Assembly (NCBI RefSeq): GCF_014205225.1
Contig: NZ_JACHNB010000001.1
Coordinates: 6,243,501-6,307,500, forward strand
Length of the DNA: 64,000 bases
DNA from: Actinoplanes octamycinicus
GTDB lineage: Bacteria > Actinomycetota > Actinomycetes > Mycobacteriales > Micromonosporaceae
Direction of reading: 5' to 3'
The position numbers were made by a program, and so were the translations under genes. Under the pieces are notes generated by a model, which ran no database searches, was not told the origin of the DNA, and saw nothing but the letters and a program-made list of their open reading frames with translations. Positions within the stretch are counted from its first letter, which is position 1; each line of letters begins with the position of its first letter. Positions 3,102-45,409 of this stretch are shown here, piece by piece.

Positions 3102-3965
3102 TCACGACGTCTCCCGGCGACTGAACGCGACGTCCTGGTTGCCGATCACGGACAGCAGCGCCAGCTTCTCGTGGCTCTCGCTGCCCGGGACCGCGGTGTA
3201 GACCAGCAGCGAATGGCCCTGGTCCGGGTCGAGCAGCGCCTGACAGGTCAGCTCCAGCGCGCCGACCTCCGGATGCCGGAACCGTTTGAGGTGCTGGTGC
3301 CGCACGCCGATCTCGTGCTCGTTCCAGACCGTGCGGAACTCCTCGCAGCTGTCCATCAACAGCTTCTGCAGGTACGCCGCCCGGGAACCCGGCCCGCGGA
3401 CCGTCGCCACGTGCCGCAGCCCGGACGCGAAGACGCGCGAGTGCAGCGGGTGGTCGTCCGGGTGGTAGCGGGCGCGGCACGCCGGGTCGGTGAACCAGCG
3501 GTAGCCGATGCTGCGCGCCGGCCCGGTGAACCGGGTGAGGTCGCCGTTGAGGGCGACGCCGAGAGCGTTCTGCCGCAGCGTCTCGCCGAGTTCGGTGACG
3601 ATCTCGGCGGGGGTGTCGGCGAGCCGGTCGAAGATCCGCAACAGGCCGGGGCTGATGTGCTCGCCGGTGCCGCCGCGGACCGGCGGGTGGTGCCCGGCCA
3701 GCCGGAACAGGTGGTCGCGTTCGTCGAGCGACAGGTGCAGGCCCTGCGCGATCGACGCGATCATCTGCTCGGACGGGTGCGGGCCGCGGCCGCGTTCCAG
3801 GCGGCTGTAGTAGTCGGCGGAGATGTGGCAGAGCGTGGCCACCTCCTCGCGGCGCAGCCCGGATGTCCGGCGGCGCTGCCCGCGGGGCAGGCCGACGTCC
3901 TCCGGTTGCAGGGCTTCCCGCCGGCGCCGCAGGAACTCGGCCAGCCCGGCACGATCGATCAGCAT
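3102..3965 (-). CDS. MmyB-type XRE transcriptional regulator (copy 1)
   Basis: A 287-residue regulator. An N-terminal helix-turn-helix carries the family signature [10 protein letters not shown] and a [10 protein letters not shown] recognition region (about residues 30-60). It is followed by the MmyB-like ligand-binding domain, which contains LFRLAGH, a conserved YRWFTDP segment and [11 protein letters not shown] near the C-terminus. MmyB-like regulators are known to sit beside short-chain dehydrogenases in actinomycetes. Here the SDR gene ends 10 bases upstream on the same strand, so the two are almost certainly one operon with the regulator second. I chose the ATG at 3965 because the upstream extension overlaps the SDR and is not conserved in style. 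It is one of four such regulators in this window. Confidence 0.9.
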
Positions 3966-9904: not shown

Positions 9905-10564
9905 ATGTTGCGTAGCACCATGCTGTCTTCCCCCGCCTGGCGCCGTGGCCTGCTGGCCGGCGCCGCGCTGAGCGCCGCGCTCGCCGTCTCCGCCTGCGGC
10001 GGCAGCGACTCCTCGTCGGACTCCGGCATGAACCACGGCGGCATGACGCCGGCCGCGACCGCCTCCGCGGCGGCGCCGGCGACGTTCAACGACGCCGACG
10101 TGATGTTCGCGAGCATGATGATCCCGCACCACCAGCAGGCCGTGGAGATGGCGGCGCTGGCCGACGGCCGCGCCGCCGGCACCGAGGTCAAGGACCTCGC
10201 TGGCAAGATCAAGGCCGCTCAGCAGCCGGAGATCGACACGATGAGCCGGTGGCTGACCGCCTGGGGCCACCCGATGCCGGCCACGACCGCCTCCGGTATG
10301 CCCGGCATGTCGGGCATGGAGCACGGCTCGATGCCCGGCATCATGTCGCAGGCTGACATGGACAAGCTGACCGCGGCCAAGGGCGCCGCGTTCGACAAGC
10401 AGTTCCTCACCATGATGATCAGCCACCACGAGGGCGCCATCACGATGGCCCAGCAGGAGGTGGCGCAGGGCTCCGACCCGGACGCCAAGGCTCTCGCCCA
10501 GAACATCATCACTGCTCAGCAGGCCGAGATCACCACGATGAAGGGCCTGCTCGGCAAGCTCTGA
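9905..10564 (+). CDS. DUF305 lipoprotein (copy 1)
   Basis: A 219-residue exported lipoprotein. A signal peptide ends at the lipobox LAVSAC (Cys about residue 31). It is followed by a Ser/Met/His-rich linker and a DUF305 (ferritin-like four-helix) domain with MIPHHQQAVEMA and, in its second half, MISHHEGAITMAQQE. These two MxxHHxxAxxM motifs define the family and look like metal-binding sites. DUF305 proteins are often found near copper-handling genes, though their activity is unproven. Met-rich GMPGMSGMEHGSMPG lies between the two motifs. It lies 78 bases after DUF6153 and ends at a strong terminator. Confidence 0.9.
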   Translation: MLRSTMLSSPAWRRGLLAGAALSAALAVSACGGSDSSSDSGMNHGGMTPAATASAAAPATFNDADVMFASMMIPHHQQAVEMAALADGRAAGTEVKDLAGKIKAAQQPEIDTMSRWLTAWGHPMPATTASGMPGMSGMEHGSMPGIMSQADMDKLTAAKGAAFDKQFLTMMISHHEGAITMAQQEVAQGSDPDAKALAQNIITAQQAEITTMKGLLGKL

Positions 10565-10643: not shown

Positions 10644-11279
10644 ATGACCCCTCCCTCAGCGCCTCCCGCCCGTTGGCGCCGTGGCCTGCTTGCCGGCGCT
10701 GCCGTCTGCGCCGTTCTCGTATCGTCCGGCTGTGGCGACACGACCACCGCCGATCCGGGCCCGACGAGCACCGCTAGCCCGGCCGGGGCGGGAACGTCAG
10801 CGAACACGGCCGTCAACGACGCCGACATCGCCTTCGCCCGGCAGATGATCCCGCACCACCAGTCGGCCGTCGCCATGGCAGAGCTGGCCACCGGGCACGT
10901 CGGCGACCCCCGGGTGGCCGATCTCGCCGGCCGGATCCAGGCGGCGCAGCAGCCCGAGATCGACACGCTGAACCACTGGCTCGCCAGGTGGGGCAAGCCC
11001 ATGCCGAGCGCGAGCGGCGAGGCGATGGAAGGCATGGAACACGGCGAGATGGCCGGCATCGACGAACTCGACGTGACGGCGCTGATGAACGCCAAGGGCA
11101 CGCCGTGGGACAAGGAGTTCCTGGCGGTGATGGTCAAACACCATGAGGCCGCCGTCATGATGGCTCAGCAGGAACTCGCCCAGGGCGCCAACTCGGATGC
11201 CACGACTCTCGCGCAGAAGATCATCACTGATCAGCAGGCGCAGATCACCGAGATGAGGCAGCTCCGCGCCCAGTTGTAG
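10644..11279 (+). CDS. DUF305 lipoprotein (copy 2)
   Basis: A 211-residue lipoprotein that is a diverged paralogue of the preceding gene. The signal peptide ends in a lipobox (LVSSGC, Cys about residue 30). The DUF305 domain has MIPHHQSAVAMAELA and MVKHHEAAVMMAQQE. The Met-rich linker between the motifs is shorter than in copy 1. The alignment of the two copies along their whole length shows a tandem duplication that has since diverged. The hairpin between the two genes means copy 2 may depend on readthrough or on its own promoter in the 30-base gap. Confidence 0.9.
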   Translation: MTPPSAPPARWRRGLLAGAAVCAVLVSSGCGDTTTADPGPTSTASPAGAGTSANTAVNDADIAFARQMIPHHQSAVAMAELATGHVGDPRVADLAGRIQAAQQPEIDTLNHWLARWGKPMPSASGEAMEGMEHGEMAGIDELDVTALMNAKGTPWDKEFLAVMVKHHEAAVMMAQQELAQGANSDATTLAQKIITDQQAQITEMRQLRAQL

Positions 11280-28670: not shown

Positions 28671-30068
28671 TCAGTTGGGGGTGCCGGTGGTGGTGCGGGT
28701 TTGTTTCCAGCGGTGGTGTTCCTGGTTTTCGGTGGTGGTGGTGATGGTGCCGGCTAGTTCGGTGTTGTGGTGGCAGGCGGTGGGGGCGCAGTCGTCGAGG
28801 ACGGGGCCGACTTTGACGGGTTTGCCGGCGGGGTTGATGTAGGCGACGCCGTACACGTTGTTGATGGCGCTGTTCTGGGTGAAGAATGTTTCGTGGTAGA
28901 GGTTGCGGATGTAGAAGCCGGTGTAGTGGCCTTTCATGATCCGGCCGTCGGGTAGCCGGCCGCTGGAGATCATCCGGTTGCCGTCCATGGTGTTGTGGTG
29001 GCCCTCGGCGATGGCGATACAAATGTTGGAGAACGACACGCAGGTGTTGTTTTTGCAGGTCAGATAGCGTGATGCGTGCGCGGCGGGGTTACCGGGTGAG
29101 CTGTCACCGCAGGTGATCATGCTGCCGTTGTTGCCGGCGGTGGGGTCTTTGGCGTAGGCGCCCTGGATGTAGTTGTGGGCTACCAGGGCCGGGTTGCCGG
29201 GTTTGCCGGCGACGCCGGTGACGCTGATGATGTCGGTGTAATCGGTTTGGCCGGGCTGGTTGATGATCTCGTTCCAGGAGATCTCGAACCGGCCGGGTTC
29301 GATGATGCCCAGGGTCGCGGAGAAGAAGCCGGCGCAGGAGCCGTGGCTGGTGGGCCGGGGATCGGCGTTGAGGTGTGGGTCGCAGCGGCCGGTCGTGACT
29401 CGCCCGTCGGTGTTGACCGCCCGGTTCCGGGAGATGACCAGTTCGCTGACGGCGGCGGGTTTACGGTCGCCGGTGATGTGCACGCCCCGGGTGTGGCTGA
29501 ACTCGTTGTCGGTGATGACGACCCGGCGCGGCCAGACCGCTTTGAAGAAGAAACCGCGGGCCCGGCCGGGTACTTTCGGGTCCAGGCCCTCACCGTGGCA
29601 GTTGCGGACGGTGACGTTCATGTTGATCTGCGTGGCACGGTCGGTGCTCCACGCGGCGATCAGGTTCCCCGGTCCTCGTACCGAGCAGTTCTCGATCACT
29701 ACCGGTTCCGAGGTGTGAATCGTCACGGCCGCGACGGCCGGATCGGTACTGGCCCACCTCCCGGAATACCGGCCACCCTTGGTGATCTCCAAAGGGCCTG
29801 AATACGAGACGGTCGCCTTCGGCGTGACCCGCGAAGGCCGCACCGACACCGACCCACTCACCGCCGCTGTGGCGGTCGCCTTGGCCGTGGCGCCGGCGCG
29901 GGGCGCGGTGCTGCGCGCCGGGGCAGGCTCGGCCTGACCGGTCGTGACCGGATCGTTCGGCGGTTGGCTGCAACCTCCGAGAAGCAGGGCCACCGCGACG
30001 GCCGCGGCCGTGCCGCGCACGGCGATCCGCGCCGGTGAAGTAATGCTTCGATTGCGATGTTGTGCCAT
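28671..30068 (-). CDS. Lipoprotein with right-handed beta-helix domain, twin of the sigma-fusion sensor domain
   Basis: A 465-residue lipoprotein. The lipobox ALLLGGC places the lipidated Cys at residue 33. A Thr/Ala-rich linker follows, and residues ~68-465 form a parallel beta-helix-like domain. Its repeated turns include VVIENCSVRG, MNVTVRNCHG, VVITDNEFSH, LVISRNRAVN and LVAHNYIQG. Cys-rich stretches (TCKNNTCVSFSNIC) probably form disulfides. This domain is the same, residue for residue as far as compared, as the extracellular part of the divergent ECF sigma fusion. The start at 30068 is chosen for a proper signal peptide. It would sit on the outer face of the membrane, where it could bind the same ligand, or the same partner, as the fused sensor. 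Actual ligand unknown; pectate-lyase-like folds bind polysaccharide. Confidence 0.85.
   Translation of the reverse strand: MAQHRNRSITSPARIAVRGTAAAVAVALLLGGCSQPPNDPVTTGQAEPAPARSTAPRAGATAKATATAAVSGSVSVRPSRVTPKATVSYSGPLEITKGGRYSGRWASTDPAVAAVTIHTSEPVVIENCSVRGPGNLIAAWSTDRATQINMNVTVRNCHGEGLDPKVPGRARGFFFKAVWPRRVVITDNEFSHTRGVHITGDRKPAAVSELVISRNRAVNTDGRVTTGRCDPHLNADPRPTSHGSCAGFFSATLGIIEPGRFEISWNEIINQPGQTDYTDIISVTGVAGKPGNPALVAHNYIQGAYAKDPTAGNNGSMITCGDSSPGNPAAHASRYLTCKNNTCVSFSNICIAIAEGHHNTMDGNRMISSGRLPDGRIMKGHYTGFYIRNLYHETFFTQNSAINNVYGVAYINPAGKPVKVGPVLDDCAPTACHHNTELAGTITTTTENQEHHRWKQTRTTTGTPN
28673..29866 (-). repeat. Long inverted repeat, left arm (1,194 bp)
   Basis: This arm is the reverse complement of 31357-32550. 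Coordinates pair as x + y = 61223. In the stretches I compared base by base only one mismatch appears (29832 against 31391, silent). Identity stops at the third base before the end of each coding region, so the two genes have different stop codons (TGA and TAG). Confidence 0.92.
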
Positions 30069-30353
30069 GTTCCCCTGTCCGATCACGTGCGGTGCATATC
30101 GAAGGAATGCCATCGACAGAGGAGCAGGTTAGGTGCTCGACGCCCGCTACGGAACCGCATAAATCTCACACCACTTTTGTGATATGTGCCCATGAGATTC
30201 GACTCGCAGTACGTTCGTTTGCGACTTCGCCGGTCCGGATGGTAAAGCAATGAATCAACTTTTTCCGCAGCTCGAATTTCGGCCCACCGTAGTTATTCGG
30301 CAGCGGCACATGTACGATTCCCGGCGGCCCACCGAAGTGCGAAAAGGTAACTG
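30069..30353. promoter_or_regulatory. Divergent promoter region between beta-helix lipoprotein and sigma fusion
   Basis: 285 bases, more AT-rich than the surroundings (for example around 30240-30290), must hold promoters for both genes. TCACA-N7-TGTGA lies at 30165-30181. AAAAGG at 30342-30347 is the ribosome binding site of the sigma fusion. I could not place the -35/-10 pairs with confidence. If the sigma factor activates itself, its target promoter should be here. Confidence 0.5.
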
Positions 30354-32552
30354 ATGGCGATAACACGCGAATCGACGATCGACGCGGCAAGGCGTGGCGA
30401 CCGCCGAGCGAGGGACGAGCTGTTCCGGCGCCAGCTGCCCGTGATCTACTCCGCGGTCGCCCGCCTCGTCCCGGCCGAGCGCGTCGACGATGTGGTGCAG
30501 GAGACGGCTGCCCAGGCCGTGAAGCACCTTGACGAGTTGCGCGCACCGGCCAACCTGCGGTCCTGGCTGCTGACCATCGCACTGCGGGAAGCCCGCCGTG
30601 ACCGGGCGGCACGGCAGACCGAGGCCGACTGGAGCGCTTCCGCGGATCCGGCCGGCTCCGGCGTGGATCCGCAGGATCTCGCCGTCGCCCGCGTCGAACG
30701 ATCCGGCGAACGGTTCGAGGTGGCCGTCGCGGCGAGCTGGTTGGACGAAGACGACCGGGAGCTGCTCACCCTGTGGTGGCTGGAACTGCTCGGCGAGATG
30801 GACCGGGCATCGATAGCCGCAGCACTCGACCAGTCGCTGCCCTATGTCGCGGTGCGGCTACAACGGATGCGGGACCGGCTCGCCAAGGCGCGCACTCTGG
30901 TCCGGGTGCTGGCCGAGTTCCGGCGTGCCGGAAGCGACAACCCCTGCCCCGATCTGGCTCAGGAGTCGGCCGGGTGGGACGGCAAGCCGTCGCCGCTGTG
31001 GCGCAAACGCCTCTTGCGTCATGTCGCGGCCTGCCCTCGATGCACCTCAGTGGCCGGCACGTTCGTGCCTGCCGAGCAACTGCTGCCCACTTTCGTGCTT
31101 CTCGTGCCGCAGTCCGGACTGCTCGCCGCTCCCACGTCGCTCAGCGCCACGCCGGCGAAGGCGGTCGTCCGGACCCTGCGCCGGCTGCACTCGGCCATGG
31201 GCAACACGGCAACCGCCGGATTGACCGTTGTCGCTGTCGCGGCGTCGTCGATCGGTGTCTACGCCGCGGTACGCGACCGCGAGCCGGTCAGCGCCGAGCA
31301 ACCGGCGGCAATCGGCGTACCGGCTCCCGTTCCGAGCGCGAACGTCACCTCATCGCCGGCGGTGAGTGGGTCGGTGTCGGTGCGGCCTTCCCGGGTCACG
31401 CCGAAGGCGACCGTCTCGTATTCAGGCCCTTTGGAGATCACCAAGGGTGGCCGGTATTCCGGGAGGTGGGCCAGTACCGATCCGGCCGTCGCGGCCGTGA
31501 CGATTCACACCTCGGAACCGGTAGTGATCGAGAACTGCTCGGTACGAGGACCGGGGAACCTGATCGCCGCGTGGAGCACCGACCGTGCCACGCAGATCAA
31601 CATGAACGTCACCGTCCGCAACTGCCACGGTGAGGGCCTGGACCCGAAAGTACCCGGCCGGGCCCGCGGTTTCTTCTTCAAAGCGGTCTGGCCGCGCCGG
31701 GTCGTCATCACCGACAACGAGTTCAGCCACACCCGGGGCGTGCACATCACCGGCGACCGTAAACCCGCCGCCGTCAGCGAACTGGTCATCTCCCGGAACC
31801 GGGCGGTCAACACCGACGGGCGAGTCACGACCGGCCGCTGCGACCCACACCTCAACGCCGATCCCCGGCCCACCAGCCACGGCTCCTGCGCCGGCTTCTT
31901 CTCCGCGACCCTGGGCATCATCGAACCCGGCCGGTTCGAGATCTCCTGGAACGAGATCATCAACCAGCCCGGCCAAACCGATTACACCGACATCATCAGC
32001 GTCACCGGCGTCGCCGGCAAACCCGGCAACCCGGCCCTGGTAGCCCACAACTACATCCAGGGCGCCTACGCCAAAGACCCCACCGCCGGCAACAACGGCA
32101 GCATGATCACCTGCGGTGACAGCTCACCCGGTAACCCCGCCGCGCACGCATCACGCTATCTGACCTGCAAAAACAACACCTGCGTGTCGTTCTCCAACAT
32201 TTGTATCGCCATCGCCGAGGGCCACCACAACACCATGGACGGCAACCGGATGATCTCCAGCGGCCGGCTACCCGACGGCCGGATCATGAAAGGCCACTAC
32301 ACCGGCTTCTACATCCGCAACCTCTACCACGAAACATTCTTCACCCAGAACAGCGCCATCAACAACGTGTACGGCGTCGCCTACATCAACCCCGCCGGCA
32401 AACCCGTCAAAGTCGGCCCCGTCCTCGACGACTGCGCCCCCACCGCCTGCCACCACAACACCGAACTAGCCGGCACCATCACCACCACCACCGAAAACCA
32501 GGAACACCACCGCTGGAAACAAACCCGCACCACCACCGGCACCCCCAACTAG
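30354..32552 (+). CDS. ECF sigma factor fused through a membrane helix to an extracellular beta-helix domain
   Basis: A 732-residue one-protein signalling device. Residues ~8-90 form sigma region 2 (VDDVVQETAAQAVKHLDEL, LRSWLLTIALREARRD) and ~120-185 form sigma region 4 (SWLDEDDRELLTL, ALDQSLPYVAVRLQRMRDRL). Around 198-230 is a small zinc-finger-like segment with Cys198, His223, Cys227 and Cys230 (HVAACPRC), as in anti-sigma ZAS domains. One membrane helix follows (about 287-305, GLTVVAVAASSIGVYAAV). A linker leads to a ~398-residue Cys-rich beta-helix domain, shared with the divergent lipoprotein. Sigma factors carrying C-terminal membrane and sensory extensions are known in actinobacteria; a beta-helix sensor with a free twin copy is not familiar to me. 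ATG at 30354 with AAAAGG six bases upstream. Confidence 0.85.
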   Translation: MAITRESTIDAARRGDRRARDELFRRQLPVIYSAVARLVPAERVDDVVQETAAQAVKHLDELRAPANLRSWLLTIALREARRDRAARQTEADWSASADPAGSGVDPQDLAVARVERSGERFEVAVAASWLDEDDRELLTLWWLELLGEMDRASIAAALDQSLPYVAVRLQRMRDRLAKARTLVRVLAEFRRAGSDNPCPDLAQESAGWDGKPSPLWRKRLLRHVAACPRCTSVAGTFVPAEQLLPTFVLLVPQSGLLAAPTSLSATPAKAVVRTLRRLHSAMGNTATAGLTVVAVAASSIGVYAAVRDREPVSAEQPAAIGVPAPVPSANVTSSPAVSGSVSVRPSRVTPKATVSYSGPLEITKGGRYSGRWASTDPAVAAVTIHTSEPVVIENCSVRGPGNLIAAWSTDRATQINMNVTVRNCHGEGLDPKVPGRARGFFFKAVWPRRVVITDNEFSHTRGVHITGDRKPAAVSELVISRNRAVNTDGRVTTGRCDPHLNADPRPTSHGSCAGFFSATLGIIEPGRFEISWNEIINQPGQTDYTDIISVTGVAGKPGNPALVAHNYIQGAYAKDPTAGNNGSMITCGDSSPGNPAAHASRYLTCKNNTCVSFSNICIAIAEGHHNTMDGNRMISSGRLPDGRIMKGHYTGFYIRNLYHETFFTQNSAINNVYGVAYINPAGKPVKVGPVLDDCAPTACHHNTELAGTITTTTENQEHHRWKQTRTTTGTPN
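31357..32550 (+). repeat. Long inverted repeat, right arm (1,194 bp)
   Basis: Partner of 28673-29866. The two arms enclose 1,490 bases holding the unique 5' parts of both genes and their shared promoter region. Confidence 0.92.
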
Positions 32553-32601
32553 AACGCCACAGCCGGACAGACCTGGCGCACGCTGCCGTACTTTGGGCGA
32601 T

Positions 32602-33798
32602 GTGAAGAGCGTCGAGCGGTTGCGCTACGCCGCCCGGGCGCACCCCACGGCGGTGGACAGCCTGCTCGGCGCGTTGGTGTTCGGGATCAGCCTGGTGCCG
32701 GTGGCCCCGCCCGGCGGCCCGCCTCCGCAGCCGGTGACGGCCGGCTCGGTGCTGCTCGCACTGACCGGGTGCGGCGCTCTGGCTCTGCGCCGCCGCCATC
32801 CGTTGCCGGTCCTCGGGGTGGTCAGCGTGGCTGCCGCGGTCTCCCTGGTGACCTTGCAGACCCGCGGGTTCCTGGTGCTCACCGTGGGCATCGCGGCGTA
32901 CACGGTGGCTACTCGCACGTCTCGGCGCACCGCCGTGGCGGTCGGTACGGCCAGTGCCTTGACGCTCGGCGCCTGCGCCGTGGTCGCGCTCGATGTCGGC
33001 TGGCTCGATCCGGCGGTCGTGGTGCTGCTGCTGTGGTTCGGATTGGCCGTCGCGGCCGGCACCTCGGTACGCACCCGGCGCGACTACATCGCCGTCCTCA
33101 CCGAGCGGGCCCAGCGCGCGGAGCAGACCCGTGAGCAGGAGGCCCGCCGCCGGGTCGCTGAGGAGCGGCTGCGGATCGCCCGGGAGCTGCACGACGTGGT
33201 GGCACACCACATAGCGGTGATCAACGTGCAGGCCGGGGTGGCCGGACATCTGATCCGTGAGCAGCCGGCCGTCGCCGAGGACGCCCTCGGCCATGTCCGG
33301 GCCGCGGCCCGCACCGCTCTGGAGGAACTCGCTACGCTGCTCGGCGTGCTGCGCCGCGACGAGGAGTCTGGCCCGGACGCTCCCACCGAGCCGGCTCCGA
33401 GCCTCAGCCGGCTCGACGCGCTCATCGAGGCGTTCGCCGCCGGCCAGCCAGTGCGCTGGACGGTGTCCGGGCAGCCGCGGGCCTTGCCCAGCGCGGTCGA
33501 CGTGGCGGCTTACCGGATCCTTCAGGAGTCCCTGACCAACGCGTGCCGCCATGCCAGCGGCACGCCGGTGACGGTTCGGCTGACGTACGACGAAGCCGCC
33601 GTCACCGTCGAGGTCTGTGACGGCGGCCCGGCCGGCGCGGCGCCCGCGGCGTCGCCGGGTACCGGGCTGGGGCTGCTGGGTATGCGGGAGCGTGCCGAGT
33701 CGGTGGGCGGCACGTTCAGCGCCGGTCGCCGTCCGGAGGGCGGCTTCCGCGTTCATGCCGTGCTTCCGGCCCGCGCCACTCAGGAGGAGGCGGTATGA
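32602..33798 (+). CDS. Two-component sensor histidine kinase (HisKA_3 type)
   Basis: A 398-residue kinase of the NarX/DesK type. Five to six membrane segments lie in the first ~150 residues, with very short outside loops. A coiled coil follows, then the phosphoacceptor box IARELHDVVAHHIAVINVQA (His about 198). The ATPase domain has QESLTNACRHA (N-box) and GTGLGLLGMRERAE (G-box). The lack of a sensory outside domain suggests sensing within the membrane, as in cell-envelope stress kinases. GTG at 32602 is taken as start; a TTG nine bases upstream is possible. Its stop overlaps the response regulator start by four bases. Confidence 0.93.
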   Translation: MKSVERLRYAARAHPTAVDSLLGALVFGISLVPVAPPGGPPPQPVTAGSVLLALTGCGALALRRRHPLPVLGVVSVAAAVSLVTLQTRGFLVLTVGIAAYTVATRTSRRTAVAVGTASALTLGACAVVALDVGWLDPAVVVLLLWFGLAVAAGTSVRTRRDYIAVLTERAQRAEQTREQEARRRVAEERLRIARELHDVVAHHIAVINVQAGVAGHLIREQPAVAEDALGHVRAAARTALEELATLLGVLRRDEESGPDAPTEPAPSLSRLDALIEAFAAGQPVRWTVSGQPRALPSAVDVAAYRILQESLTNACRHASGTPVTVRLTYDEAAVTVEVCDGGPAGAAPAASPGTGLGLLGMRERAESVGGTFSAGRRPEGGFRVHAVLPARATQEEAV

Positions 33799-34472
33799 CG
33801 ATCCGGGTCGTGCTGGCTGACGACCAGACCCTGATCCGGGCCGGATTCCGCGCGTTGATCGATTCGGCGGCCGACCTCTCGGTGGTCGGTGAGGCGGCAA
33901 CCGGCGCCGAGGCGATCGAGCGGGTCCGTGACACCGGCGCCGATGTGGTGCTGATGGACATCCGGATGCCCGGGATGGACGGCTTGGACGCCACCCGCCA
34001 GATCACCGCCGACGAGAGCCTGGCCGGCACCCGGGTGCTGATCCTGACCACGTTCGAGGTCGACGAGTACGTCTTCCAGGCGCTTCGTGCCGGGGCGAGC
34101 GGATTCCTCGGCAAGGGCGTGGAACCGGCGGAGTTGCTGGCCGCCATCCGGACCATCGCCGCCGGCGAGGCCCTGCTGTCACCCAAGGCCGTCCGCGGGC
34201 TCATCGCCCGGTTCCTGGCCGAGCCCGACCCGGAGCCACGCACCGCGCCGGCCGTGCTGCGGGTGCTCACCGAGCGGGAACGCGAGGTGCTGTCGCTGGT
34301 CGCCGCCGGGCTCAGCAACGAGCAGATCGCGCAGCGGCTGGTGGTGTCGCCGCTGACCGCCAAGACGCACGTGAATCGGGCCATGGCCAAGCTCGGCGCC
34401 CGCGATCGCGCGCAGCTCGTGGTGATCGCCTACCAGACCGGACTGGTCCGCGCCGACCCGCCGGTGCAGTAG
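33795..34472 (+). CDS. NarL/LuxR-family response regulator
   Basis: A 225-residue response regulator. The receiver domain has DDQ acidic residues near the N-terminus, the phosphorylatable Asp in VVLMDIRMPGMDG (about residue 54), and the switch Thr/Lys in ILTTFE and GKGVEPAELL. The C-terminal LuxR-type HTH reads LTEREREVLSLVAAGLSNEQ, IAQRLVVSPLTAKTHVNRAM. It is coupled to the kinase by a GTGA/ATGA-type overlap. It probably activates the ABC transporter genes directly downstream, where an inverted repeat lies. Confidence 0.95.
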   Translation: MTIRVVLADDQTLIRAGFRALIDSAADLSVVGEAATGAEAIERVRDTGADVVLMDIRMPGMDGLDATRQITADESLAGTRVLILTTFEVDEYVFQALRAGASGFLGKGVEPAELLAAIRTIAAGEALLSPKAVRGLIARFLAEPDPEPRTAPAVLRVLTEREREVLSLVAAGLSNEQIAQRLVVSPLTAKTHVNRAMAKLGARDRAQLVVIAYQTGLVRADPPVQ

Positions 34473-34483
34473 GCGCCGGGCGG

Positions 34484-34505
34484 GCGTACCGCATTCGCGG
34501 TACGC
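34484..34505. promoter_or_regulatory. Inverted repeat between response regulator and ABC transporter genes
   Basis: GCGTACCGC-ATTC-GCGGTACGC has perfect 9-base arms, 12 bases after the regulator's stop. It could be a response-regulator binding site for the ABC operon or a short terminator; both readings are open. Confidence 0.5.
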
Positions 34506-34562
34506 GCAAGAGTCCGCAGGCGGCGGACGCGGCGCCGGTCCTACGCGGGCGACCGTAGATCC

Positions 34563-35483
34563 ATGATCGAAGTAGTCGAGCTGAGCAAGCGCTACGGCGA
34601 CAAGGTCGCCGTGGACACGTTGACGTTTCAGGTGCGGCCGGGCGTGGTCACCGGCTTCCTCGGGCCCAACGGCGCCGGCAAATCCACCACCATGCGCATG
34701 ATCCTCGGCCTGGACGCTCCGACCAGCGGCCGGGTGACCGTGAACGGCCGCCGGTACGCCGAGCACCGCGCCCCGATGCGGCAGATCGGCGCCCTGCTGG
34801 AGGCCAAGGCGGTGCACGCCGGGCGATCGGCCCGCAATCACCTGCTGGCCCTCGCCGCGACCCACGGAATCAGCACCCGGCGAGTCGACGAGGTGATCGA
34901 CGCGGTGGGGCTGCGGGAGGTGGCCGGCAAGCGGGCAGGCGGCTTCTCCCTCGGTATGGGGCAGCGGCTCGGCATCGCCGTGGCCCTGCTCGGTGACCCG
35001 GCCGTGGTGATGCTCGACGAGCCAGTCAACGGCCTGGACCCCGACGGCATCCGCTGGATCCGTGACCTGTTGAAGGGACTCGCCGCCGAGGGACGTACGG
35101 TCTTCGTCTCCTCGCACCTGATGAGCGAGATGGCCCAGACGGCGGAACATCTGATCGTCGTCGGCCGTGGCCGCCTGCTGGCCGACGTCTCGCTCACCGA
35201 GTTCACCCGGCGGGCGTCCCAGACGGTCGTGCGGGTCCGTTCGCCGCAGGCGGCCGCGTTGCGCGAGCTCCTCGCCGGGGCCGGCGTGACGGTCACCAGC
35301 GGCGAACCCGGCGCGCTGGAGGTGACCGGCCTGACCCGGGAACAGATCGGCGACCGGGCCGCCGCCGCCCGCATCACCCTGCACGAGCTCAGCGCGAGCG
35401 AGACGTCCTTGGAGGACGCGTTCATGTCGATGACCCGCGACGCCGTCGAGTACGCCGGCACCCCGGTTCGGAGCCCGCGATGA
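34563..35483 (+). CDS. ABC transporter ATPase (bacitracin/multidrug-export type)
   Basis: A 306-residue ATPase. Walker A is GPNGAGKST near residue 37. The signature is atypical (GGFSLGMGQRLGIAVALL, FSLGMGQ for LSGGQ), typical of the BcrA/DrrA-like lantibiotic and bacitracin exporters. Walker B is VVMLDEPVNGLD, with a switch His in VSSHLMSE. A C-terminal ~85-residue extension holds a small regulatory domain. It is encoded directly after a DesK-like two-component system, a common arrangement for envelope stress or antibiotic resistance, and overlaps the permease start by four bases. Confidence 0.92.
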   Translation: MIEVVELSKRYGDKVAVDTLTFQVRPGVVTGFLGPNGAGKSTTMRMILGLDAPTSGRVTVNGRRYAEHRAPMRQIGALLEAKAVHAGRSARNHLLALAATHGISTRRVDEVIDAVGLREVAGKRAGGFSLGMGQRLGIAVALLGDPAVVMLDEPVNGLDPDGIRWIRDLLKGLAAEGRTVFVSSHLMSEMAQTAEHLIVVGRGRLLADVSLTEFTRRASQTVVRVRSPQAAALRELLAGAGVTVTSGEPGALEVTGLTREQIGDRAAAARITLHELSASETSLEDAFMSMTRDAVEYAGTPVRSPR

Positions 35484-36304
35484 CGACGCCCACCGCACAC
35501 GCCGCTGTCCCGGCCGATGCCAGCGTCACCGTCTCGCGGGTGATTCGCGCCGAGTGGATCAAATTCCGTTCCCTGCGATCATCGCTGATCATGATGGCTG
35601 CCACGATCGCCGTCTTCGCCGCTCTCGGTCTCGGCTTCTCCGCCTTCCTGGCCGATGCCACCATCGAACCCGGCACCCCGGCTCCACCCGGCGGGCCGTC
35701 CTCGCTCGATCCGCTCGGCGCCAGCCTCGGCGGGGTGAACCTGGCCCAGCTGCTCATCGCGACCCTGGGAGTGTTGCTGATCGCCGGGGAGTACTCGACC
35801 GGCATGATCCGCTCCTCGCTGGCGGCGGTGCCACGCCGGTGGCCGGTCCTCGCCGGCAAGGTCGCGGTGCTGGCCGGCGTGTCGCTGGCCACGTTGGTGC
35901 CGACCGTCCTGCTGACCTTCGTCGGTGCGCAGACCGTGCTGGGGGACAAGGGCATCGCGCTCACCGACAGCGGAGTGCTGCGGGCGGTCCTCGGCACCGC
36001 CGGCTATCTCGCCGGCGTGGGCGTACTGGGCATGGCATTCGGCTTCCTGCTGCGTAACACCGCTGCCGCGCTCACCAGTGTGGTCGCCGTCCTGCTGATT
36101 CTGCCCGGCGTCGTGTCGCTGCTGCCGGAGAGCTGGTCCGACACGATCGCGCCCTACCTGCCGTCCAACGCCGGCCAGGCGTTCATGAGCATCGCCAGCG
36201 ATCCCGGCCTGCTTTCACCGGGGGCCGGTGCGGCCGTGTTCACCGGCTGGCTGGTGCTGCTGCTCGCGGCGGCGGTCACGGTGCTGCGCCGCCGCGACGC
36301 CTGA
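35480..36304 (+). CDS. ABC-2-type transporter permease
   Basis: A 274-residue membrane protein with about six helices. EWIKFRSLRSSLIMMAATI opens the first helix, as in BcrB-like partners. VLLIAGEYSTGMIRSSLAAV is the conserved cytoplasmic motif of this ABC-2 subfamily (GEYxxGxIRxxL). It pairs with the preceding ATPase to form an exporter, presumably for a peptide or lipid-like toxic compound. A bidirectional terminator follows 40 bases after its stop. Confidence 0.92.
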   Translation: MTTPTAHAAVPADASVTVSRVIRAEWIKFRSLRSSLIMMAATIAVFAALGLGFSAFLADATIEPGTPAPPGGPSSLDPLGASLGGVNLAQLLIATLGVLLIAGEYSTGMIRSSLAAVPRRWPVLAGKVAVLAGVSLATLVPTVLLTFVGAQTVLGDKGIALTDSGVLRAVLGTAGYLAGVGVLGMAFGFLLRNTAAALTSVVAVLLILPGVVSLLPESWSDTIAPYLPSNAGQAFMSIASDPGLLSPGAGAAVFTGWLVLLLAAAVTVLRRRDA

Positions 36305-39863: not shown

Positions 39864-40706
39864 TCAGCGGGGTACGGTCATCTGCTGGGTGCCGATGGTG
39901 GCCAGCAGGTCGAGTTTGCTGCGGGCGTCGGTGCCCGGGCGTGGGGTGTAGACGACCAGATGCAGGTCCGAGCCCTGGGTGGTGAGCACATCGCAGTCCA
40001 GGGCGATGTCGCCGACGTCCGGGTGCTCGACGATCTTGCTGGCGCCCTGGTGGGCGGCGACCGACCCGCGGGTCCACAGCTCGCGGAAGCGGGGGCTGCG
40101 GTGCAGGCGGGCGACCAGCGCGGTCACGGCGGGGTCGCCGGGGTAGCGGCTGGTCGTCGCGCGCAGGTCGGCGACCAGGGACTCCTCGAAAGCGGCTCGC
40201 TCCGCCGGGCTCTGCCGGATCCGGTTCAGGCCGCCCTCGAAGTGCATGATCAGCACGTTGCGGGCCTCCGGGCCGCGTACGGTCGGATCGCCGAACGTGG
40301 CCGCGAGCAGCGCATTCCAGTGCAGCAGCTGCCAGGCCGCGTCGTAGACCGCGAGCGGGTGGCCGTCGAGCCGTTCGATGATCCGGTGGAGGCTGCCGGG
40401 GATGATCCGTGGCACCCGGTCCGGAGCGGCGGCGTGCCCGGCGAGGCGCATCAGGTGGGCCTGCTCGTCGTCGGACAGCCGCAGGGCGCGCGCCAGCGCC
40501 GAGCAGACCTGCGCGGACGGGGTGGGTGCGCGGCCCTGCTCGAGACGCACCACGTACTCGGCGGAGATGCCGGCCAGCACGGCGAGTTCCTCGCGGCGCA
40601 GGCCCGGCACGCGGCGCGGCGAGTGGTGCGGAAGCCCGGCGGCGGCCGGGTCGAGACGATCACGCCACGCGCGCAACGTGGCGCCGAGTTGATCCATGCC
40701 GACCAT
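39864..40706 (-). CDS. MmyB-type XRE transcriptional regulator (copy 3)
   Basis: A 280-residue regulator. The HTH has VPGLRREELAVLAGISAEYV and VRLEQGRAPTPSA, followed by HLMRLAGHAA. The MmyB ligand domain has WQLLHWNALLAATFG and ends in LDLLATIG. Either ATG (40706 or 40697) could be the start. It diverges from an aldo/keto reductase gene across 93 bases that contain an 8-base-arm inverted repeat, so it likely controls that gene. Compared with copies 1, 2 and 4 the regulator differs throughout, so these are old paralogues rather than recent duplicates. Confidence 0.9.
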   Translation of the reverse strand: MVGMDQLGATLRAWRDRLDPAAAGLPHHSPRRVPGLRREELAVLAGISAEYVVRLEQGRAPTPSAQVCSALARALRLSDDEQAHLMRLAGHAAAPDRVPRIIPGSLHRIIERLDGHPLAVYDAAWQLLHWNALLAATFGDPTVRGPEARNVLIMHFEGGLNRIRQSPAERAAFEESLVADLRATTSRYPGDPAVTALVARLHRSPRFRELWTRGSVAAHQGASKIVEHPDVGDIALDCDVLTTQGSDLHLVVYTPRPGTDARSKLDLLATIGTQQMTVPR

Positions 40707-44551: not shown

Positions 44552-45409
44552 TTATCGGTCTTGCGTCGTGAGCGGTACGGGGAACTCCTCGGTGCCGAGG
44601 ACCCGCAGCAGGGCCAGGCGCTCGCGGGCCTCGTCGTCGGCCGGCGTCAGCACCAGCAGCTGCTGGCCCAGATCCGGGGTGACCAGGGTTTCGCAGTCCA
44701 TGGTGAGCCGGCCGACCCTCGGATGCTCGAACGTCTTGCGGTCGCTGCGGCGTACCGCGACCTGGTGTTCGGCCCACAGCCGGTCGAAGTCGGCGCTGGC
44801 CGTGCGCAGGGTCGCGATCAGGGCGGTGACCTCCGGGTCGCCTGCCCGCCGGCCGGCCACGGCGCGCAGATCGGCGACGTGCTGCCGGCCCAGCCGTTCG
44901 CGTTCCGCGGCGGACGAGACGGGGTGCGAGTCCGGTTCGGTGAACCAGCGATAGGTCAGGTAGCGGCGGTAGCCGGTGAAACCGGTGTGGTCACCGGCCA
45001 GCAGGATCGACGCCCGGTTCTGAGCCAGCACCACGCCCAGGTCGGAGATGACTATGGCCGGGGTGTCGCCGAGCAGGTCGAGCATCCGCAGCAGACCGGC
45101 CCGGGCCAGCCGGGCGGCGTCGGCGCCCGGCTGCGGCTGGTGCCCGGCCAGGCGGAACAGGTGGTCGCGTTCGTCGTCGGACAGCCGCAGCGCGCGGGCC
45201 AGCGCGATCAGCAGCTGCGTCGACGGCTGGCTGCTGCGGCCCTGCTCCAGGCGGACCACGTAGTCCACCGACATGCCGGCCAGCATCGCGACCTCCTCCC
45301 GGCGCAGACCGGTGGTGCGCCGGCGCGGCCCGTCGGACAGGCCGACCTCGGCCGGGTGGATCGCCTTCCGGCGGCGGCGCAGGAAGTCGGCCAGCTCGTC
45401 ACGTTCCAT
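44552..45409 (-). CDS. MmyB-type XRE transcriptional regulator (copy 4)
   Basis: A 285-residue regulator. The HTH reads [34 protein letters not shown], then [17 protein letters not shown]. The MmyB ligand domain includes YRRYLTYRWFTEPDSHPVSS and LLVLTPADDEARERL. Its closest relative in this window is copy 1 (3.1 kb), with the same EEVA... and YRWFTxP wording. It diverges from an aldo/keto reductase gene at 45511 across a gap with a palindrome (45445-45459). The start at 45409 is supported by alignment to the other copies. Confidence 0.9.
   Translation of the reverse strand: MERDELADFLRRRRKAIHPAEVGLSDGPRRRTTGLRREEVAMLAGMSVDYVVRLEQGRSSQPSTQLLIALARALRLSDDERDHLFRLAGHQPQPGADAARLARAGLLRMLDLLGDTPAIVISDLGVVLAQNRASILLAGDHTGFTGYRRYLTYRWFTEPDSHPVSSAAERERLGRQHVADLRAVAGRRAGDPEVTALIATLRTASADFDRLWAEHQVAVRRSDRKTFEHPRVGRLTMDCETLVTPDLGQQLLVLTPADDEARERLALLRVLGTEEFPVPLTTQDR

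Follow-up and report, generated by a model that had tools for sequence, protein, structure and literature searches.

What would a membrane-bound sigma factor sense with an outside domain that the neighbouring gene encodes a second time? This question is raised by a locus of Actinoplanes octamycinicus (contig NZ_JACHNB010000001.1, positions 6,243,501 to 6,307,500; this stretch of 64,000 nucleotides is referred to as the window, and coordinates refer to it unless a locus is named). Here, an open frame of 732 amino acids (30354-32552, forward strand), with full-length relatives in a second genome of the genus (G060), joins an extracytoplasmic function (ECF) sigma factor, an HxxxCxxC motif, a membrane helix and a beta-helix domain. 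An earlier note on this DNA had read the protein as a membrane-tethered sigma factor that needs release to act. The anatomy and a proposal made for the groups ECF48, ECF52 and ECF53 agree with this; the picture of the sensor was incomplete, since the fusion protein does not have this domain to itself: a divergently transcribed lipoprotein gene holds its DNA-identical twin, and the inverted repeat formed with that gene had been missed.

The sensor domain has an identical twin in a divergent lipoprotein gene

The beta-helix coding part of the fusion gene is the right arm (31357-32550, forward strand) of an inverted repeat. Its left arm (28673-29866, reverse strand) forms the body of the partner gene, and the arms are identical at 1193 of 1194 positions (99.9%) around a unique centre of 1.49 kb (29867-31356). 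The partner gene (28671-30113, reverse strand) is an open frame of 480 amino acids with a lipoprotein-type signal in front of the same beta-helix; its lipobox, LGGC, lies at residues 45-48 (29970-29981, reverse strand), with Cys48 in a conserved column. Sensor domain and lipoprotein domain are identical residue for residue. The right arm stops on the first base of the fusion's stop codon, beyond which the stops and flanks of the twins differ, and the copied stretch barely exceeds the part common to the sensor and the surface protein.

Twin pairs in a related genome are near-identical within each locus

A whole-protein search of 67 genomes of the genus, including the own genome, gave full-length relatives only in the own genome and in G060 among the matches listed, which were ranked by score. 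G060 carries two loci with the full-length fusion architecture (70% and 45% identity to the window protein), each with a divergent lipoprotein partner (pairs a and b; the pair-b partner is an open frame at L037 7504-8907, with one stop just upstream of the frame). A decayed remnant in another genome, G253 (L040 1359-1917), keeps both ends of the architecture, namely the first ~50 sigma codons (56% identical over residues 9-51, E value 7e-11) followed by the final third of the beta-helix in a different frame. Sigma factor and beta-helix had been claimed by the earlier note to be one polypeptide; they do share one open frame in the window, and the relatives show that the join is not a one-off.

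Within the two G060 pairs, the beta-helix DNA matches over 1177 bp at 99.8% (one mismatch, one gap) and over 1249 bp at 100%. Inside the domain, none of the three pairs shows a single difference (1125, 1131 and 1158 nucleotides; 0/203, 0/205 and 0/210 fourfold sites), the rare differences between arms sitting near the tract ends. Between loci, 32-44% of the fourfold sites in the domain differ and amino acid identity is 46-76%. As expected of concerted evolution, copies within a locus are thus closer to each other than to copies of other loci, in all three loci, and in the domain tree each within-locus pair forms sisters. The sigma parts of the three fusions are monophyletic (support 0.934 in a midpoint-rooted sigma tree), the N-terminal parts of the partners are 26-33% identical between loci (33% between the window and G060 pair a), and the lipobox Cys48 aligns in all three partners. 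As the pair is common to the loci and the identity lies within each of them, the pair appears to be old and the identity young, with gene conversion repeated at each locus. Judged from these sequence comparisons, recurrent gene conversion between the inverted copies is the economical reading of the twin identity.

No flanking gene is common to the window (8.6 and 9.4 kb compared) and the G060 loci (about 4-5 kb per side) at 1e-8, which suggests that the twin-gene unit moved as one. With a three-sequence beta-helix alignment (A1), a narrow query that distant copies may escape, matches came from three of the 300 genomes searched in the family (E ≤ 1e-20), two of 397 in the order (E ≤ 1e-10), one of 394 in the class and one of 160 in the genus of G253 (both at E ≤ 1e-6). 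Some genomes belong to more than one of these sets, and the family, order and class matches include the own genome.

The sigma-membrane half belongs to a known kind of protein

The fusion protein has regions 2 and 4 of a sigma factor and lacks region 3, the layout of ECF sigma factors. TIGR02937 (sigma70-ECF, NCBIfam) spans residues 19-178 (30408-30887, forward strand; 45.0 bits vs a cut-off of 42.9), and Sigma70_r2 of Pfam matches above its cut-off (E 3.7e-8). The note's assignment of regions 2 and 4 stands for the domain as a whole, with region 4 on its own giving no Pfam match in the fusion protein. What had been called a ZAS-like (zinc-binding anti-sigma-like) cluster of Cys and His is an HxxxCxxC motif at residues 223-230 (31020-31043, forward strand), of which H223, C227 and C230 are invariant in 34/34 aligned proteins, the window protein among them. 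The zinc-finger label itself is weak, the zf-HC2 match of Pfam staying below the cut-off (E 0.13). The single membrane helix, also predicted before, coincides with the hydropathy maximum of the protein at residues 288-306 (31215-31271, forward strand; 1.88 over 19 residues). It is followed by a 426-residue extension, predicted to be extracytoplasmic, that begins with a linker rich in Pro, Ser and Ala.

Related sigma-membrane proteins were collected as three own-genome paralogues plus 28 best matches, one per further genome of the genus, and these 31 relatives are therefore not a random sample. Their C-termini, sorted into classes by the tails of the proteins, carry Glyco_hydro_cc (17), AbfB (8), Lcl_C (4), a different beta-helix (1) or no Pfam domain (1). 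The different beta-helix (L011 277-2607, in G011) matches Pfam Beta_helix, and its protein is a neighbour of the three fusions when the sigma tree is rooted at the midpoint; the C-terminal part of L010 853-2553 gave no Pfam match at E 0.01. Short repeats of 68-90 bp lie outside the gene in L005, L017 and L031. Varied glycan-related C-termini without twins suggest that the module commonly serves as a socket into which glycan-related sensors are fitted, and within the 31-locus sample the twin is special to the beta-helix type found here.

Such a layout is described, in the available parts of the papers concerned, for ECF52 and ECF53, which combine a sigma factor, a zinc finger, membrane helices and carbohydrate-related domains (PMC8999054, PMC5826349, PMC10766802), and release by proteolysis is proposed there for the groups ECF48, ECF52 and ECF53 (PMC8999054, PMC5826349). 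As far as these parts go, the window protein resembles members such as SCO4117 in having an ECF sigma factor, a putative zinc-finger segment, a membrane helix and an outside domain that may be carbohydrate-related in one protein; it differs in that the outside part is a predicted right-handed beta-helix of ~375 residues with a DNA-identical lipoprotein twin next door. By its domain layout, the sigma-membrane module is of this known kind, ECF52/53-like.

In SigI/RsgI systems, sigma and anti-sigma factor are separate proteins, whereas the window protein joins sigma and anti-sigma parts and its sensor has an identical lipoprotein twin. The likeness to biomass sensing by SigI/RsgI of Clostridium thermocellum, as far as described in the available part of the source, is that membrane signalling senses outside substrates, and RseP cuts RsgI there within its transmembrane helix (PMC12203970). 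In the parts of the literature available to us, no proven ligand was found for fused ECF sigma factors as one-component sensors. No relevant paper in the open-licence literature tied a beta-helix or gene conversion to ECF or other sigma sensors, and within that literature a beta-helix sensor is as unfamiliar as the earlier note had held. In outline the mechanism is that of a class already described; what is new is a twin that conversion keeps identical.

The shared domain is predicted to be a polysaccharide-type beta-helix

The predicted extracellular domain (residues 358-732; 31425-32549, forward strand) was modelled with confidence as a beta-helix (predicted local distance difference test, pLDDT, 89.3; predicted template modelling score, pTM, 0.90), and in this model it forms the parallel coil of beta-strand turns of a right-handed parallel beta-helix. 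Pfam Beta_helix matches the window fusion above its cut-off (29.7 vs 25.9 bits); both G060 fusions miss E 0.001. The fold that the earlier note had proposed is upheld by model and profile; of the ~398-residue Cys-rich domain that it had described, the Cys-rich part holds only mildly, with 10 Cys in 398 residues. A domain model made by AlphaFold2 (AF2) from a single sequence was of poor quality, at pLDDT 38, and was set aside.

The predicted fold resembles the alginate epimerases AlgG and AlgE, the polysaccharide lyases PL6 and RbmB, and phage tailspikes, from which the domain differs in sequence, with only 8-18% identity to these structures and no Foldseek match at E ≤ 0.001. Profile searches of PDB chain sequences with the domain found no credible match (best E 0.75 and 0.63), and its conserved polar residues are not matched to the catalytic site of a named CAZy family. 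By its modelled fold, the domain is a polysaccharide-type beta-helix, and it may bind or process a bacterial polysaccharide.

Distant relatives form gene pairs in Bacteroidota

A first scan of genome contigs and a scan of viral contigs with A1 gave no relative, and none was found in phage records. A wider alignment (A6) then yielded 60 beta-helix loci. In Hymenobacter and Pontibacter, homologous domains (~30-35% identity) occur as gene pairs in which a solo copy stands beside a longer copy (44 pairs). These pairs are like the Actinoplanes ones in this arrangement and in occasional homogenised tracts; they differ in showing no sigma part, in lying on the same strand (44/44, some copies several kb apart) and in being mostly at 56-77% nucleotide identity. 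Five of the 44 look homogenised, three of them strongly. Between neighbouring genes, the tract covers 1046 bp at 100% in L082 (Hymenobacter citatus), 1057 bp at 99.7% in L093 (H. profundi) and 1085 bp at 100% in L102 (Pontibacter ummariensis), and in L096 it covers 750 bp at 93%. Polysaccharide-synthesis genes adjoin the pairs in 4/4 pair loci examined. In L082, L093 and L102, one gene is far longer than its neighbour despite the near-identical tract.

A single candidate regulatory site lies between the twin genes

Between the two genes of the window, GGAACC together with the dyad TCACA-N7-TGTGA (30151-30185, forward strand) is conserved with G060 pair a and may be a promoter or operator. At ≤2 mismatches this is the only such site in the own genome (reversed control 0), and both genomes searched hold a single copy of the element's core.

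A possible conversion-matched sensor pair and its alternatives

Our reading, for which we consider the chances evenly balanced, is that the two genes form a signalling unit in which a tethered ECF sigma factor with a glycan-type sensor and a lipoprotein with the same domain are kept identical by conversion. What supports it directly is the anatomy, the twin identity and its occurrence at three loci, along with the fold prediction and the unique intergenic element. In such a unit, lipoprotein and sensor twins would have one polysaccharide in common, which they bind or on which they act. Once the amount of ligand exceeds that of the lipoprotein, the sensor twin would become engaged and so report ligand that the lipoprotein has not taken. 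The sensor tail would then be cut outside and next within the membrane, and the freed sigma domain would transcribe its own locus. More lipoprotein would compete for the same ligand and switch the signal off. A further claim, which we find unlikely, is that the identity is itself the function, with conversion keeping sensor and surface protein matched, by glycan competition or homotypic binding, as a private self-matching pair in each lineage. If this were true, homotypic matching would amount to a transcriptional self-recognition system in which receptor and cue are the same polymorphic domain.

Several observations weigh against a signalling unit of this kind. A twin of the C-terminal domain was absent, as DNA and as protein, from 31/31 loci of the related sigma-membrane proteins (1.45-1.5 kb upstream and 0.3-1.2 kb downstream), so that sigma factors of this class do not in general need one. 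Copies in 40 of the 44 Bacteroidota pairs are only 56-77% identical in nucleotides, so pairs of this beta-helix family can exist without identity. The three twin pairs were all found in a single genus, and one genome supplies two of them. The dyad is missing from G060 pair b, leaving the element common to the window and pair a only, and a promoter search between the genes gave no clear ECF -10 partner for GGAACC. We infer the glycan link of the domain from a modelled fold, and it may not hold; a single-copy locus, L049, showed no polysaccharide cluster by eye, without a domain search. M50 matches occur at four loci in the own genome, and their presence says little because 14/14 control genomes match as well.

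The conversion, moreover, may be passive. It is quite possible, at somewhat less than even chances, that frequent recombination between 1.2-kb inverted copies 1.5 kb apart is all that keeps them identical, the two genes being functionally coupled by nothing more than their use of a beta-helix, and this explanation carries nearly equal weight to that of the signalling unit. It requires proximity alone, and it would account for the sporadic homogenised tracts in direct pairs of distant relatives (L082, L093, L102, L096). It is challenged by the genus pairs, 3/3 of which (two from one genome) show no difference in the domain even though amino acid identity between the loci has fallen to 46-76%, and by the same 40 neighbouring Bacteroidota pairs, which indicate that proximity alone does not enforce identity, in a comparison where the repeats are direct, more diverged and in some cases several kb apart. 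We regard it as improbable that the repeat serves as an invertible switch, in which the 1.49-kb centre, together with the promoters and 5' ends of both genes, is turned around by recombination of the arms. Inverted arms that are this long and nearly perfect, with a unique centre between them, can recombine in this way, but with identical arms the only effect of a flip would be to exchange the downstream neighbours, the two proteins staying as they are; no recombinase was noticed among the listed neighbouring frames, without a domain search, and the flanks differ between loci, so the orientation is not comparable.

The absence of divergence within the domain would also follow if the fusion or its partner had arisen by independent recent inverted duplications in each lineage, without conversion. 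That the fusion is common to all three loci and monophyletic, that the window and G060 pair a have partner N-termini that align, genes in the same orientation and an intergenic element in common, and that three independent events would have had to produce the same geometry make this very improbable. Least credible of all is an artefact of assembly or polishing that copied one arm onto the other. Short-read polishing can homogenise repeats of 1.2 kb; it erases few differences, not tens of percent, and the unique centres and flanks, the differing tract ends, the open frames of both genes and the occurrence in two single-contig genomes and three loci argue against it.

The conversion-matched pair, if it is one, comes with built-in clues to its sensor: the lipoprotein partner is identical to it, homologues lie next to genes for polysaccharide synthesis, and a single candidate regulatory site separates the two genes. 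With these, ligand, target and feedback can all be tested at one locus. The pair is also a clear example, in a bacterium, of concerted evolution that is limited to one domain and reaches across a regulatory boundary.

Neighbouring genes and other repeats

Downstream of the fusion gene and on the same strand, the frames at 32593-36304 presumably encode a histidine kinase, a response regulator and parts of an ABC transporter, as judged from their motifs. Beside G060 pair a, a frame of 1185 amino acids (L036 8936-12493) is, by the same kind of motif assignment, what we take to be a caspase-type peptidase joined to a helicase. Elsewhere in the window, other diverged repeats (73-81% identity) lie at 3584-3953, 40426-40601 and 45034-45403, and also at 10086-10541 and 10813-11256.
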